Positions 30,278 to 40,420 of a stretch of DNA of 64,000 bases are shown here, piece by piece. Numbering within the stretch: the first letter of the stretch is position 1; each line of letters opens with the position of its first letter. The position numbers and the translations under genes are program-made. The notes beneath the pieces were generated by a model. The model was not told the DNA's origin. It saw only the letters and a list, made by a program, of their open reading frames with translations, and ran no database searches. The stretch comes from Pseudomonas guineae. Its GTDB lineage: Bacteria > Pseudomonadota > Gammaproteobacteria > Pseudomonadales > Pseudomonadaceae. Where the stretch lies: positions 744,001 to 808,000 of the forward strand of contig NZ_FOQL01000001.1 of the NCBI RefSeq assembly GCF_900113745.1. Direction: 5' to 3'.

Positions 30278-31165
30278 TTAAAGAGTGATGCCAAGCAGCG
30301 CCTGAGCCTTCTGCAAGCGTTTACCGCGCGCACTGCCGGCCATCGACAGCAAGCCCCGGTCGCGCCGCCACAACTGCGCCCAATGCGCATCACCGGCGGC
30401 AAAGGCGCTGTCCAGCTCGCCGCACAGGCTGTCGAACTGGGCGAACAAGCCGGCCAGCATCAGATGACTGTCAGCCTTACTCGGACATTGCCGCGCCACT
30501 TCTGCGCAGCCGGCCAGCAAACCAAGTAAGCGTAACTGCAAGGCCTGTGGCCAGGCCGAGTCCTGCCCCACGCCAAACAGCCAGGCCGTCAGCGCCGCCA
30601 GCACATGGGTGTCTTCCAGGGTGCGAAAGGGTTTCACGTAATCATCCCAGCCATCCCCCGGCAGCCGCTCACAATGCGCGCCGTGCAGATGCAGGCGGCC
30701 GTGGCTGACATCGGGCATCAGCGGTAACGCCGGCAAGGCCTCGATACGCACGCCCGGCGCGCCATTGTGCACAACGCCCAAGGCGAGCCGCAGCGGCTGC
30801 CCCACCTCCTCCTCACGCGCAGCCACCAGCAGCCAATCGGCGGCTTGCGCAGCGGTAACGAAATCCTTGCGCCCAGTGAGCGTCAGTGCGCTGAGCCGTG
30901 TGCCCATGTCCGCCGGTCGGGTGCTGCGGTTTTCAGTCACGCACAGCGCACCCAGCGTCCAGGGCGCAGCCGGCCACAATGCGCGCAACGCGCCCTGGTA
31001 TCCGGCAAGAAACGCCAGCCCCGGCGTCGCCGCCAAGCGCCCGCCAGACACGGCCAACTGCAACGGGGCTGGCTGGCTAGTGCGTTCGAGCAGGCTGGCG
31101 TACCACGCCTCCAAACCCGCGACCGGCAGCCGTGTCTGCGGGCTCAACAGCTGTTGCCAGGGCAT
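30278..31165 (-). CDS. Short acyl-CoA dehydrogenase-like protein
   Basis: A 295-residue protein that resembles part of acyl-CoA dehydrogenase: [44 protein letters not shown] (about residues 72-115) follows the order of the flavin-binding middle domain. It is shorter than true family members (about 380 residues), with little of the N-terminal helical domain. I cannot identify a convincing catalytic Glu or the usual C-terminal flavin arginine motif, so enzymatic activity is doubtful. The ATG at 31165 has AAGGAG upstream, so it is translated. It is divergent from olsB-olsA with a Pho-box-like element between them. Confidence 0.65.
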
Positions 31166-35172: not shown

Positions 35173-36222
35173 ATGACCACACTTTTCGACCCCATCAAAA
35201 TCGGCGACCTTGAGCTGAACAACCGCATCATCATGGCCCCGCTGACCCGCTGCCGCGCCGACGAAGGCCGCGTACCCAACGCCTTGATGGCCGAGTACTA
35301 CGTGCAACGCGCCAGCGCCGGCCTGATCATCAGCGAAGCCACTGCGGTCACGCCGATGGGCGTCGGCTACCCGGACACCCCCGGCATCTGGTCGGACGAA
35401 CAAGTGCGCGGCTGGAGCAATATCACCAAGGCTGTGCATGCCGCTGGCAGTAAGATCGTCTTGCAACTGTGGCACGTCGGCCGTGTTTCCGACCCGGTTT
35501 ACCTGAATGGCCAGCTGCCGGTAGCGCCAAGTGCCATCCAGCCGGCTGGCCACGTCAGCCTGATTCGCCCGATGAAGGACTACGTCACCCCGCGCGCGCT
35601 GGAAACAGAAGAAATCGCCGACATCGTCGACGCCTATCGCCTGGGTGCTGAAAACGCCAAAGCCGCAGGTTTCGATGGCGTGGAAATCCACGGTGCCAAT
35701 GGTTACCTGCTCGACCAGTTCCTGCAGAGCAGCACCAACCAGCGCAGTGACCGCTACGGCGGCAGCTTAGAAAACCGCGCACGCTTGCTGCTGGAAGTCA
35801 CTGATGCGGCGATTGAAGTCTGGGGCGCTGGTCGTGTAGGCATGCACCTGGCTCCGCGTGCCGACGCGCATGACATGGGTGACGCCAATCGTGCCGAAAC
35901 CTTCACCTACGTCGCGCGCGAGCTGGGCAAACGTGGCATTGCCTTTATCTGCGCCCGGGAGAAAGAAGCCGACGACAGCCTGTCGCCAAGCTTGAAGGAA
36001 GCTTTCGGCGGCGTGTTTATCGCTAACGAGCGTTTTACAAAAGATCAGGCCAACGCCTGGCTGCAAAGCGGCAAAGCCGATGCCGTGGCCTTCGGTATTC
36101 CGTTTATCGCCAATCCAGACCTGCCAGCACGCCTGGCGCAAGACGCCGAACTGAACACCCCGCACCCAGAAACCTTCTACGGCTCCGGCCCAGTCGGCTA
36201 CCTCGACTACCCAACGCTGTAA
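35173..36222 (+). CDS. xenB: Old Yellow Enzyme-family reductase (XenB-like)
   Basis: A 349-residue FMN-dependent ene-reductase close to Pseudomonas XenB and E. coli NemA. FMN and substrate sites are visible: NRIIMAPLTRCRA near the N-terminus, LQLWHVGRVS (about 97-106), and HGANGYLLDQFLQSS with SDRYGGS (about 178-205). These enzymes use NADPH to reduce activated alkenes and nitro compounds such as nitroglycerin. It ends the arsR-MFS-xenB unit. Two hairpins follow. The natural substrate is unknown, but a common reactive inducer for all three genes is a reasonable inference. Confidence 0.9.
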   Translation: MTTLFDPIKIGDLELNNRIIMAPLTRCRADEGRVPNALMAEYYVQRASAGLIISEATAVTPMGVGYPDTPGIWSDEQVRGWSNITKAVHAAGSKIVLQLWHVGRVSDPVYLNGQLPVAPSAIQPAGHVSLIRPMKDYVTPRALETEEIADIVDAYRLGAENAKAAGFDGVEIHGANGYLLDQFLQSSTNQRSDRYGGSLENRARLLLEVTDAAIEVWGAGRVGMHLAPRADAHDMGDANRAETFTYVARELGKRGIAFICAREKEADDSLSPSLKEAFGGVFIANERFTKDQANAWLQSGKADAVAFGIPFIANPDLPARLAQDAELNTPHPETFYGSGPVGYLDYPTL

Positions 36223-36244
36223 GCCAAGTGACTAGCCGCCTCAA

Positions 36245-36302
36245 GCCTGGAATCGAATAGGTTCCAGGCCTGAAAACGCCCGGTGCATTGCATCGGGCGT
36301 TT
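36245..36302 (+). terminator. Two tandem hairpins after xenB
   Basis: The first stem is GCCTGGAA / TTCCAGGC (36245-36269). The second is a 14-bp stem with one G-T pair, AAACGCCCGGTGCA / TGCATCGGGCGTTT (36274-36302), ending in TTT. The second probably terminates the arsR-MFS-xenB transcript. Confidence 0.6.
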
Positions 36303-36621
36303 CAAATGCCCCATGCTCCGCCGTCATCTACACGAAAAACTTGCTGCGCAAAGCCCCCTATTGCGGGTCAGTACGACACTGACTGGCGCTACGACGTGGT
36401 GATCAGTGACAGCAAGACGCTTGCCAGCTTAGTTGCTCGCTTGCCTCCGCTCATGACCCGAACCAAATGCGTGCAAACCAGTCATGATCTGCCCCGTTGC
36501 AGACCACCCTGTTCACTTGTCACAAAAATTTGTCTGAAAAAATAGATAAACCCGCACTTCATTGTGCAGATTGCACAGCTATCCTTGTCCTTCTCGCCCA
36601 GGCATATGCCCCTGTATAAAG

Positions 36622-36637
36622 TGGCACGTTGCCTGCA
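36622..36637 (+). promoter_or_regulatory. Sigma-54 promoter of codB-pucR-codA
   Basis: TGGCACGTTGCCTGCA matches the sigma-54 consensus TGGCACG-N4-TTGCA at 11 of 12 fixed positions, with GG and GC exactly ten bases apart. The predicted start is near 36648, about 25 bases before the codB ATG. Confidence 0.75.
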
Positions 36638-36672
36638 ATCGCCAGGTTCTTACCCACTCTGGAGAGATGGAC

Positions 36673-37947
36673 ATGAGCCAAGCCCCGCAAGACAGCGACT
36701 ACCCCCTGAGTGAAGTGCCAAGTGGCGCGCGCAAAGGACTGCTATCAACCTCCGTTCTGCTGTTCGGCTTCACCTTCTTTACCGCCACTATGTTTGCCGG
36801 CGGCAAGATTGGCATGGCCTTCGACTTCAAAACCCTCATATGGGCCGCCGTGCTCGGTAACTTGCTGCTTGGGCTTTATGCGGCCGCACTGGGCCTGATC
36901 GCCTGCCGTAGCGGTCTCAACTCGGTGCTAATGGGGCGTTTCTGCTTCGGCGAGATGGGCAGCAAACTGTCAGACTTCCTCCTCGGCTTCACGCAAATTG
37001 GCTGGTATGCCTGGGGTACTGCGACCATTGCTCTGGTGCTGGTACGCCTACTCGGCCTGCCCGAGGGGCTGACTATTCCGCTAATGGTGCTGTTTGGCTT
37101 CGGCTTCTGCATCACCGCCTTTATTGGCTACCGTGGCCTTGACCTGCTGTCACGTGTGGCGGTGCCGGCGATGCTGGTTCTGCTGGTTTCATCGCTGTGG
37201 ATTGCTACGCGTGATGCAGGTGGCTGGACAGCATTGCTGGCCATCGAGCCCAAGGACAGCATGACGCTGAGCATGGCCATCACCCTGGTCTTCGGCACCT
37301 TCGTCAGCGGCGCGACCCAGGCCACCAACTGGACCCGCTTCGCCAAAAGCGGCCGCGTGGCGGTGTTTTCGAGCCTGATCGGCTTCTTTATCGGCAACGG
37401 TTTGATGATCATCGCCGGTGCCTATGGGGCCATCGTTTACCAACAGCCTGATGTGGTTGAAGTGCTGGTACTGCAAGGCTTATCCATGGCCGCCGTGGTG
37501 ATGCTGTTCCTTAATCTGTGGACCACTCAGGACAACACCATCTACAACTTCGCCGCTGCCGGCTGCAACATGCTGCGCACAGACCGCCGCAAAACCGTGA
37601 CCATGGTCGGCGCAGGCATCGGCACCCTGCTGGCCATCGGCGGCATGTACGAAATGCTGATTCCGTTCCTGATCCTGCTTGGCTCGATCATTCCGCCCAT
37701 CGGCGGGGTGATCATGGCTAACTATTTTTACTGCCATAAACAGCACTACCCGAAACTGGCCGAGGCGCAATTACCGGCCTTCAACTGGACAGGGCTTGGC
37801 GCCTACCTAATCGGTGCAGTGTGCGCGTACCTATCGCCCTGGGTGGCCCCCATCGTTGGCATTGTGGTCGGCGCGCTTGCTCATATCGTGCTGTTTGAAG
37901 TGCAACGTGCGTTGAGCGGTCAACTGCAGGCCAAAGCCAACCCATGA
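36673..37947 (+). CDS. codB: Cytosine permease CodB
   Basis: A 424-residue permease of the nucleobase:cation symporter-1 family, with about twelve membrane segments. It brings cytosine into the cell. Family features include the FGFTFFTATMFAGGKIGMAF stretch in the first helix, GFTQIGWYAWG and TQATNWTRFAKS. I choose the ATG at 36673, eight bases after GGAG; an ATG two codons earlier lies only two bases from it. Its stop overlaps the pucR start (ATGA). With codA it forms a cytosine-use operon behind a sigma-54 promoter, so control by nitrogen supply is likely. Confidence 0.92.
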   Translation: MSQAPQDSDYPLSEVPSGARKGLLSTSVLLFGFTFFTATMFAGGKIGMAFDFKTLIWAAVLGNLLLGLYAAALGLIACRSGLNSVLMGRFCFGEMGSKLSDFLLGFTQIGWYAWGTATIALVLVRLLGLPEGLTIPLMVLFGFGFCITAFIGYRGLDLLSRVAVPAMLVLLVSSLWIATRDAGGWTALLAIEPKDSMTLSMAITLVFGTFVSGATQATNWTRFAKSGRVAVFSSLIGFFIGNGLMIIAGAYGAIVYQQPDVVEVLVLQGLSMAAVVMLFLNLWTTQDNTIYNFAAAGCNMLRTDRRKTVTMVGAGIGTLLAIGGMYEMLIPFLILLGSIIPPIGGVIMANYFYCHKQHYPKLAEAQLPAFNWTGLGAYLIGAVCAYLSPWVAPIVGIVVGALAHIVLFEVQRALSGQLQAKANP

Positions 37948-39185
37948 GCCTACGCGTGGCTGACGTACTCGCCCTCCCCGGCCTGCAAAGTCTGCAATTG
38001 CGGGCCGGCGCTGCCGGGCTGGACAACCCGGTACGCTGGCCATACGTGGCCGAGAACGAAGGTATTGCCGATTGGGTGATGGGCGGCGAGCTGATTTTCG
38101 TGACCGGCATCAACCATCCGCGTAACGAAGCCAACCTGCTGCAGCTGGTGCGTGAAGGCCACCAGCGGGTGGTCGCCGGCCTGGTCATTCTGACCGGTGA
38201 GGAGTTTATCCAGCACATCCCCCGCTCGGTGATCGACGAGGCCGAGCACCTCGGCCTCCCTCTACTGGAGCAGCCCTACCAGTTAAAAATGGTCATCGTC
38301 ACCCAGGCCATCGGTACGGCCTTGGTCGAGGAGCAAGTGCTCGGCCGCTCGCGCCAGCATGTGCTGGAACAGCTATTGGAGGGCGACTATCGCTCGCTGG
38401 ATGTGCTGCTGCAGCGCGCCGATAACCTGCGTCTACCCCTGGCGGTGCCGCGGCAGGTTGCCCTGTTCAAGCTCGACGGTGGCGAGCGTTTATTCAGCAC
38501 CGAACCGCCAGATCAAGCTGAACGTCAGCTGCAAAGCCACCGCCAGCAACTGCAACGCCAGTTAGAACAGAGCCTGAGTGAACTCGGTGACGCCCTGGCA
38601 CCAATCTGCCAAGGCGAGCACTGGATCGCCTTGCTACCCGCCCGCGACAGCCAACACGAGCAACGCAACCGACGCACCATGATGAAACTACTGGAGCAGC
38701 TCAATCAGCAACTGGCGCCGCTGCGCCTGTTTCTCGGCCTAAGCGACGGCGATCACCGCCCTGAACGCTATGCCCACGGCCTAAGTGAAGCGCGCCAAGC
38801 CTTAGTCGCGGCGCAATCGTTCCCCGAGCGCCTGGGGCTGTGCAGCTTCAACGAACTGGGCGTGCTTGAATTGCTCGGCGCAATTCGTGATCGCACCCTG
38901 CTCGACCGCTTCGTCGAAAACATACTCGGCGCCCTGATTGGCGATGATTCGCGCCACGAGCCCGTGCTAATGCCAACCCTGGAAGCCTGGTTCCATGAGA
39001 ATGGCAACTTGGCCCTAGCCGCCCAACGTCTGGCGGTACACCGCAATACCCTGAGCCATCGATTACAACGTATCGAAGCCCTGACCGGCTGTTCATTCGA
39101 CGATCCGCATGATCGCCTGAACATCGCCGTAGCCCTGCAAATCTGGCGACTCTCACCGCCGCGAAGTACAAGGAATAGTGGATGA
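37944..39185 (+). CDS. PucR-family transcription regulator
   Basis: A 413-residue PucR-type regulator. The N-terminal PucR domain is at about 5-120 (VADVLALPGLQSLQL; YVAENEGIADWVMGGELIFVTG), and the C-terminal helix-turn-helix at about 345-400 (FHENGNLALAAQRLAVHRNTLSHRLQRIEALTG). PucR proteins control purine or pyrimidine catabolism, usually responding to a pathway metabolite. This gene sits inside the operon, overlapping codB and codA by ATGA at each end, so it is co-translated with the permease and deaminase it probably controls. It has no enhancer-binding AAA+ domain, so it is not itself the activator of the sigma-54 promoter. Confidence 0.9.
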   Translation: MSLRVADVLALPGLQSLQLRAGAAGLDNPVRWPYVAENEGIADWVMGGELIFVTGINHPRNEANLLQLVREGHQRVVAGLVILTGEEFIQHIPRSVIDEAEHLGLPLLEQPYQLKMVIVTQAIGTALVEEQVLGRSRQHVLEQLLEGDYRSLDVLLQRADNLRLPLAVPRQVALFKLDGGERLFSTEPPDQAERQLQSHRQQLQRQLEQSLSELGDALAPICQGEHWIALLPARDSQHEQRNRRTMMKLLEQLNQQLAPLRLFLGLSDGDHRPERYAHGLSEARQALVAAQSFPERLGLCSFNELGVLELLGAIRDRTLLDRFVENILGALIGDDSRHEPVLMPTLEAWFHENGNLALAAQRLAVHRNTLSHRLQRIEALTGCSFDDPHDRLNIAVALQIWRLSPPRSTRNSG

Positions 39186-40420
39186 ACATCGTCAACGCCC
39201 GCCTACGCAAACAACCCGGCCTGTACCGCATCGAACTGGACGGTGAGCGCATTGCCGCGATCATCGAACAACCAGCCCTCGTCGCGGCGAATGCCAACGA
39301 CCTGGACGCTGCCGGTAATCTGGTGACGGCGCCCTTTATCGAGCCGCACATTCACCTCGACGCTACCCTCACCGCCGGCGAGCCGGCCTGGAATATGAGC
39401 GGTACGCTGTTTGAAGGGATTGAGCTGTGGGGTGAGCGCAAGGCGTTAGTCACCCATGAAGACACCAAGCAGCGTGCGCGCAAGACCATCGACATGCTGG
39501 TCGACCATGGCATTCAGCACGTGCGCACCCACGTCGACGTGACCGACCCGACGCTCGCCGCGCTCAAGGCAATGGTCGAGGTGCGCGACGAAGTGCGTCA
39601 CCTGATCGACTTGCAGATTGTTGCCTTCCCCCAAGAAGGCATCGAGTCGTTCGCCAACGGCCGCGCGTTGATGGAGCAGGCGATAGCCCTCGGCGCCGAT
39701 GTGGTGGGCGGTATTCCGCACTTTGAGAACACCCGTGAGCAGGGCGTCAGCTCGATCAAATTCCTGATGGACCTGGCCGAACGCACCGGCTGCCTGGTGG
39801 ATGTGCATTGCGACGAAACCGATGATCCGCACTCGCGCTTTCTCGAAGTGCTGGCCGAGGAAGCACGCGTGCGCGGCATGGGTGAGCGCGTTACCGCCAG
39901 CCACACCACGGCCATGGGCTCTTACGACAACGCTTATTGCTCGAAGCTGTTTCGCCTGCTCAAGCAATCGAAGATCAACTTTATCTCCTGCCCCACCGAG
40001 AGCATCCACCTGCAGGGTCGCTTCGACAGCTTCCCCAAGCGCCGCGGTCTGACTCGCGTGGCGGAGCTTGACCGGGCGGGGATGAACGTCTGCCTGGCGC
40101 AGGACTCCATCGTCGACCCTTGGTACCCACTGGGTAACGGCAACATTCTGCGTATTCTCGAAGCCGGCCTGCACATCTGCCACATGCTCGGTTACGACGA
40201 CCTGCAGCGCTGCCTGGACTTCATCACCGACCACAGCGCGAAAACCCTGAACCTGGGCGAGCGCTATGGATTGGCGGTAGGACGCCCAGCGAATTTGCTG
40301 GTGCTGTCCGCGCCTGACGACTACGAAATGCTCCGTAGCCAAGGCCACGCGCTGGTTTCGATCCGTGCCGGCAAGGTACTGATGCAGCGCACACCGGCGC
40401 AGATCAACCGCCTCGGCTAG
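39182..40420 (+). CDS. codA: Cytosine deaminase CodA
   Basis: A 412-residue amidohydrolase that converts cytosine to uracil and ammonia. Metal and catalytic residues align with E. coli CodA at a constant offset of five: His56 and His58 in EPHIHLD, His209 and Glu212 in VDVHCDET, His241 in ASHTTAM and Asp308 in AQDS. Length is close to the 427 residues of E. coli CodA. The start overlaps the pucR stop as ATGA. Released ammonia feeds nitrogen metabolism, which fits the sigma-54 promoter. It converges on a membrane fusion protein remnant only three bases away. Confidence 0.95.
   Translation: MNIVNARLRKQPGLYRIELDGERIAAIIEQPALVAANANDLDAAGNLVTAPFIEPHIHLDATLTAGEPAWNMSGTLFEGIELWGERKALVTHEDTKQRARKTIDMLVDHGIQHVRTHVDVTDPTLAALKAMVEVRDEVRHLIDLQIVAFPQEGIESFANGRALMEQAIALGADVVGGIPHFENTREQGVSSIKFLMDLAERTGCLVDVHCDETDDPHSRFLEVLAEEARVRGMGERVTASHTTAMGSYDNAYCSKLFRLLKQSKINFISCPTESIHLQGRFDSFPKRRGLTRVAELDRAGMNVCLAQDSIVDPWYPLGNGNILRILEAGLHICHMLGYDDLQRCLDFITDHSAKTLNLGERYGLAVGRPANLLVLSAPDDYEMLRSQGHALVSIRAGKVLMQRTPAQINRLG

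Follow-up and report, generated by a model that had tools for sequence, protein, structure and literature searches.

A predicted PucR operator in helical register with the sigma-54 promoter of a cytosine operon in Pseudomonas guineae

Comparison of the codB-pucR-codA operon of Pseudomonas guineae with its counterparts in other bacteria leads us to propose that codB has an NtrC-activated sigma-54 promoter and that an operon-specific PucR-type regulator binds inside the enhancer-promoter loop. On the basis of the aligned sequences we hold this arrangement to be probable, and the operon would then probably respond to both nitrogen shortage and a nucleobase. At the centre of the proposal is a palindrome that accompanies pucR and whose distance from the promoter has changed among relatives by whole helical turns. 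The DNA analyzed is a stretch of 64,000 nucleotides (positions 744,001 to 808,000 of the forward strand of contig NZ_FOQL01000001.1, assembly GCF_900113745.1), which we call the window; coordinates below are positions within it, and all of the features described for the operon and its upstream region are on the + strand.

The first gene, codB (36673–37947), is preceded by a GGAG ribosome-binding site (36661–36664), and GGAG also appears in the consensus built from the relatives' aligned sequences. In NCBIfam profile searches CodB matched NF008241, the cytosine permease equivalog, with 600 bits, and CodA, the product of the third gene (39182–40420), matched NF006685, cytosine deaminase, with 590 bits. 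Between them lies the gene for a PucR-type regulator (37944–39185) composed of a PucR domain, a GGDEF-like domain and a C-terminal HTH_30 domain (Pfam PF07905, PF17853 and PF13556, each above cut-off). The three genes are joined by ATGA overlaps at 37944–37947 (codB/pucR) and 39182–39185 (pucR/codA), just as an earlier reading of the letters, referred to here as the sequence-only reading, had described. The same reading held that a PucR regulator without an AAA+ domain would need NtrC as a partner, and this was borne out as far as the protein families are concerned. No match to an AAA+ domain, by which a bEBP would be recognized, was found in the PucR protein in Pfam and NCBIfam profile searches, so that PucR would have to act together with NtrC; the genome encodes both RpoN (PF04552, 233 bits) and NtrC (TIGR01818, 790 bits, cut-off 558.6).

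Among 398 genomes of the genus, the regulator was found in 96 (E ≤1e-60) and codB in 224 (E ≤1e-80), which means that over half of the genomes with codB are without the regulator. We grouped the loci by identity of the regulator to that of the window: group A, the window's own, is mostly at 70–77%, group B at 57–60% and group C at about 44–53%, while group D comprises codB loci without a full pucR. From these we took 25 loci of group A, 20 of 36 of group B, 20 of 39 group C rows (two without codB) and 60 of group D, the last being chosen best-first with omissions, and not at random, from at least 128 genomes that have codB without pucR. We added 63 further loci, with Pseudomonas, Stutzerimonas, Serratia, Symbiopectobacterium, Acinetobacter, Burkholderia, Marinobacter, Nitrincola and Corticibacter included, some of which duplicate places in the genus sample. 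The wider set, in which duplicates were kept, holds 181 loci (A 46, B 46, C 29, D 60), and removal of identical upstream regions gave the set used for spacings and offsets (A 39, B 37, C 26, D 60). The 126-locus set omits L067, L094 and L112, which have a stop in the translated aligned stretch of codB, and L120 and L131, which have no codB; the deduplicated set omits L231, whose codB is cut by a contig end, and the spacing count omits L226, whose palindrome has five mismatches.

The predicted -24/-12 element of codB, TGGCACGTTGCCTGCA (36622–36637), has the exact GG-N10-GC spacing and the near-full consensus that had been claimed for it (TGGCACG-N4-TTGC), with a single mismatch in the -12 box. 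Thirty-five bases separate the end of the element from the ATG of codB (36673), and transcription would be expected to start at 36648, 12 bases 3′ of the C in the -12 GC. The word itself is not rare in the 4.15-Mb genome: TGGCACG-N5-TGCA occurs at 4 places versus 3 for the pattern read backwards, and the sigma-54 pattern with up to two mismatches gave 22 matches in the window versus 46 in shuffles. The case for the site therefore rests on its conservation. When we compared the regions upstream of related codB genes, as the sequence-only reading had proposed, the element (≤3 mismatches, ≤95 bp before codB) was present in all 126 loci, 66 of 66 with pucR and 60 of 60 without it; in the wider set, which includes overlapping records, it was present in 181 of 181 loci, as opposed to 2 of 181 stretches read backwards. 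In 18 group C loci of the genus (L112–L130), GGCC replaces GGCA in the -24 box and the -12 box is the full TTGC. Because many relatives have lost pucR and retain the promoter and the enhancer, the codB promoter itself is probably independent of PucR.

What does go along with pucR is a palindrome, TTGTGCA-GAT-TGCACAG, at 36562–36578. The sequence-only reading had drawn attention to a GCAC-N6-GTGC element followed by a second GCAC and had likened them to NtrC half-sites. The letters are indeed there (36554–36557, 36564–36567 and 36573–36576), but the role assigned to them did not hold: among the 181 loci, GCAC-N6-GTGC (36554–36567) was found at the window's own locus only. We rejected it as an NtrC site on account of its absence elsewhere. 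Its GTGC forms, together with the second GCAC, the two halves of a different element, TGTGCA-N3-TGCACA, which follows pucR. The consensus of the palindrome is TTGTGCA-N3-TGCACAA, and the exact sequence TTGTGCANNNTGCACA occurs once in the 4.15-Mb genome, at this position. With up to three mismatches, the palindrome was found in 63 of 66 loci with an intact pucR versus 7 of 60 without one; the corresponding counts in the wider set were 46/46 in group A, 46/46 in B, 25/29 in C and 7/60 in D, with 0/181 in the backwards control. As its presence follows pucR across the loci, the most likely role of the palindrome is that of an operator for PucR. On the codB tree, pucR and the palindrome each undergo 11 changes; the pair test on supported branches, in which an average of 3.1 pairs changed in the same direction and 0 in the opposite one (median p 0.25), cannot reach significance because there are only 6 independent supported pairs.

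The seven group D loci that retain the palindrome (L134, L139, L142, L148, L313, L315 and L316) all have a codB-codA gap longer than 20 bp, which makes 7 of 16 such loci, and none of the 44 loci whose gap is shorter has the palindrome (Fisher 3e-5). A tblastn search with the C-terminal part of group B PucR matched 9 of the 16 wide gaps at E ≤0.02, namely those of L137, L139, L142, L148, L151 (weakly), L303, L313, L314 and L316; by tblastn, pucR remnants are thus present in five of the seven palindrome-retaining loci, and L134 and L315 are without them. The remnants in the codB-codA gaps suggest loss of pucR by deletion, followed later by decay or deletion of the palindrome. In L137, L139, L142, L148 and L313, the deletions have differing break points and spare mainly the HTH part, and HTH-bearing frames that start with ATG remain in L313 (101 codons), L139 (78 codons) and L137 (63 codons). 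Such HTH remnants may only mirror retention of the codA start region.

The distance from the TGTGCA of the palindrome to the TGG of the -24 element was determined at 101 deduplicated loci with pucR. It was 48 bp at 42 loci and 49 bp at 3, then 57 bp at 4, 58 bp at 5 and 59 bp at 24, and finally 67 bp at 1, 68 bp at 2 and 69 bp at 20; the spacing at the window locus is 59 bp. No spacing of 50–56 or 60–66 bp was found among these 101 loci. The spacing classes differ by steps of one helical turn. The concentration of phase at 10.5 bp, calculated from clade values, gave p values of 1.5e-5 for 10 clades, 4.5e-5 for 12 clades with Marinobacter and 0.003 for 8 clades, the clades having been listed by hand and Marinobacter, absent from the 10-clade version, having been added afterwards. 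The codB spacing of Marinobacter is 61 bp, about 2 bp outside the series. On the tree, the spacing class changes 6 times when all rows with the palindrome, including those without pucR, are counted. Ten pucR-less loci have the palindrome when up to four mismatches are allowed, and their spacings are 48 bp (5 loci), 37, 46, 47, 50 and 91 bp, of which 46, 47 and 50 bp do not fit the series. In groups A and B a second, weaker copy of the motif is found 53 bp upstream of the first (z 5.6 and 5.0, respectively), and in group C 42 bp upstream (z 4.4); these z-scores are descriptive, since they were computed over related sequences. Both offsets are again whole turns. In the window, the distal weak PucR-like site is CTGTTCACTTGTCACAA (36509–36525), which has four mismatches and lies 53 bp upstream of the main palindrome.

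Nitrogen control of the codB promoter, which had been proposed from the letters, is likely, given that NtrC and RpoN are encoded and that relatives have NtrC-like sites farther upstream. Sites with up to two mismatches to GCACC-N5-GGTGC were found in 41 of 46 group A loci, 46 of 46 in B, 10 of 29 in C and 39 of 60 in D, and the backwards control gave 1, 3, 0 and 6. The group B site is at 121–122 bp in 46 of 46 loci and is commonly GCACCGCTTTCGTGC, and 24 of the 39 group D sites are at 59–71 bp and 9 at 110–123 bp. Group A has a pair of sites, 30–32 bp apart with up to three mismatches each, at 42 of 46 loci, the window not included; the pair is mostly at 152–154 and 121–123 bp, both sites are half-matching, and the best NtrC-like match of 8 of the 41 positive loci is at 81 bp, outside the conserved pair. 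The window has two NtrC-like sites 31 bp apart. Site 1, GAACCAAATGCGTGC (36460–36474), is weak, with two mismatches to GCACC-N5-GGTGC, and aligns with the conserved GGTGC of the relatives, and site 2, GCCCCGTTGCAGACC (36491–36505), is very degenerate, with four mismatches, and aligns with their conserved GCACCA. Both are degenerate and within chance expectation, a match of the quality of site 1 arising in 193 of 2000 shuffles. This weakness in the window, together with the poor showing of group C, speaks against the NtrC part of the proposal. Genome-wide, there are 354 NtrC matches per strand at two mismatches versus 87 for the backwards pattern, too many for such matches to be used singly. 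The genome's own glnA has GCACCACTTTCGTGC at 119 bp before the -24 element, which the group B and D site GCACCGCTTTCGTGC resembles, and its glnK has GCACCGTTGTTGTGC at 92 bp. According to the accessible part of PMC8443478, mutation of ntrC impairs P. stutzeri A1501 on cytosine, thymine and uracil, and the NtrC sites of that strain are described as GC elements with an 11-nucleotide spacing. E. coli codBA is cited as Nac-controlled in the accessible text of PMC6053447, though it was unaltered in that study.

The palindrome also occurs with pucR in operons other than that of codB. Nitrincola, Marinobacter and Corticibacter have a PucR of 57–74% identity about 5.8 kb into another operon, in which an oxygenase-like gene comes first and a Bmp-type ABC transporter follows (identified by Pfam in Nitrincola and by tblastn in Marinobacter and Corticibacter). 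At the head of this operon are the palindrome and a sigma-54 site, 68 bp apart in Nitrincola, 69 bp in Marinobacter and 68 bp in Corticibacter. The Nitrincola pucR is split across two frames in its record. Marinobacter codB has its own palindrome upstream. We dropped the idea that one PucR serves both Marinobacter operons in trans, because the beginning of a further pucR copy comes after codB. In P. kuykendallii (L177), Bmp-type transporter permeases stand in the place of codB, followed by pucR and then codA, a gene order that ties the Bmp-type transporter to cytosine. NtrC (above the curated cut-off) and RpoN are encoded in 6 of 6 outgroup genomes checked. In Nitrincola (L268:5458) and Marinobacter (L256), a near-palindrome, TGTGCCCAGTGCACA, lies just 3′ of the point where transcription of the oxygenase/transporter/pucR operon is predicted to begin; in Nitrincola it is 110 bp from the first palindrome.

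How PucR and NtrC would combine can be envisioned as follows. Under nitrogen limitation, phosphorylated NtrC would bind far upstream and loop to the sigma-54 polymerase, as the similarity of the sites and knowledge of the family suggest. PucR produced from the same operon would, judging from the co-occurrence of gene and palindrome, bind at 36562–36578 and more weakly at the copy 53 bp upstream. Because both PucR sites remain on a constant helical face as seen from the -24 element, PucR may touch or bend the loop in a fixed geometry. It would thereby make NtrC-driven expression depend on a nucleobase, a ligand that we infer from the content of the operon.

One could envision instead that codB is transcribed from a sigma-70-type promoter, with PucR activating or repressing it in the ordinary way and the resemblance to a -24/-12 element fortuitous. 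In group B, 37 of 46 loci have a TATAAA/TATAAG word beside the palindrome, which would fit such a promoter, but the presence of the sigma-54 element in all 126 loci argues against it, the best sigma-70 matches mostly have 4–5 mismatches of 12 in every group, and a search for a sigma-70 promoter in 36200–36720 gave no candidate. We think that this is very unlikely. The word itself is at 57 bp before the -24 element in the 37 group B loci (L092–L111 and others) and, at 24–27 bp before it, in 18 of 60 group D loci; it thus occurs without pucR, and the sigma-70 matches are poor. A different possibility is that the palindrome is the real enhancer, the site not of PucR but of another AAA+ activator of sigma-54. 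Its centre is about 67–88 bp upstream of the predicted start, which is a possible distance for an enhancer, and an activator other than NtrC is possible since the genome encodes about 16 proteins that resemble the NtrC model in its AAA+ part. That the palindrome belongs to such a protein seems improbable nonetheless, because it accompanies pucR in other operons too, including one in a betaproteobacterium, and because most pucR-less loci retain the sigma-54 and NtrC-like sites and not the palindrome.

If the palindrome is indeed bound by PucR, the question is in which direction PucR acts. It might be a plain repressor (an anti-activator) that, when unliganded, blocks NtrC from reaching the sigma-54 polymerase and is released by the nucleobase. 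Blocking would agree with the loss of pucR, which is evidently tolerated with the sigma-54 site retained in 60 of 60 loci, and with those group A loci that have a 59-bp spacing, where the distal PucR-like site (about 113–97 bp before the -24 element) and the proximal NtrC-like site (122–108) overlap by position; in group B with its 48-bp spacing, however, the distal site is clear of the NtrC-like site. The additional near-palindrome that the Nitrincola and Marinobacter operons have beyond the predicted start would also suit a repressor. Quenching with a 10–11-bp periodicity is possible for proteins positioned within an NtrC/sigma-54 loop (accessible text of PMC4740811), and CRP down-regulates dctA and glnAp2 (accessible text of PMC3900584). 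Against this, the PucR-type regulators listed in the available part of PMC7652997 are activators, with B. subtilis PucR doing both. Plain repression is a reading that we take seriously without adopting it. Our slight preference is for a ligand-bound PucR that helps NtrC, rather than a blocker released by its ligand; the habit of the PucR family and the weakness of the group A NtrC sites were counted for the helper role.

The usual explanation of sigma-54 promoters invokes AAA+ activators and nothing else. Co-regulators without an AAA+ domain are known at NtrC promoters. The E. coli astCADBE promoter, reportedly described by Kiupakis and Reitzer in 2002, is said to be activated by NtrC with sigma-54 and superinduced by ArgR. 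Like that of astCADBE, the codB promoter would be a sigma-54 promoter that NtrC activates, would serve an operon for a nitrogen source and would answer to a substrate-specific regulator that has no AAA+ domain; it would differ in that the regulator is not ArgR but a PucR-type protein encoded by the operon itself, with a site phased at three distances. In synthetic NtrC/sigma-54 enhancers, a DNA-binding protein other than the activator at the enhancer is likewise situated between enhancer and promoter, its effect depends on helical phase, and insertions or deletions of 10–11 bp are predicted to be tolerated (accessible text of PMC4740811). Those enhancers use artificial TetR, LacI and TraR sites according to the same text, whereas the arrangement proposed here is natural and evolved. 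With GabR, PutR and AdeR, as presented in the accessible part of PMC7652997, the regulator shares the PucR family and inverted-repeat operators, of which GabR has two sites, being an octamer on two inverted repeats; unlike the operator predicted here, none of the three is placed at a sigma-54 promoter in that part of the review. Sigma-54 control has been predicted for cytosine/guanine deaminases of COG0402 (PMC12316311), and a sigma-54 element before proteobacterial cytosine deaminase genes is common to that prediction and to ours, but PucR, which is present in codB-pucR-codA, is never mentioned in its accessible text. Among the papers listed in literature searches on PucR with sigma54/RpoN or cytosine genes, which covered few subscription journals and in part only excerpts, PucR at a sigma-54 promoter was not found. 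As far as these searches show, the predicted PucR operator in the loop, its register in whole turns and the series of naturally occurring pucR losses are new.

During evolution the distance between the predicted operator and the promoter has changed in steps of whole helical turns, and natural pucR deletions at various stages of decay adjoin intact promoters. The operons are thus a ready system for testing how a protein without an AAA+ domain gates an enhancer-promoter loop, and they supply a predicted operator for this group of PucR proteins. More generally, and only tentatively, a PucR-type regulator without AAA+ may be a dedicated partner of NtrC and sigma-54 in Gamma- and Betaproteobacteria, acting as a two-site complex within the loop, in fixed helical register, that adjusts the geometry of the loop to a nucleobase ligand. 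If true, such a partner would be the natural counterpart of the synthetic loop-gated enhancers. Two minor observations concern the distribution of these elements. One genome (G160) holds both a group B (L097) and a group C (L113) codB-pucR locus, and the window contains a second match to the palindrome, with two mismatches, at 30765–30781.
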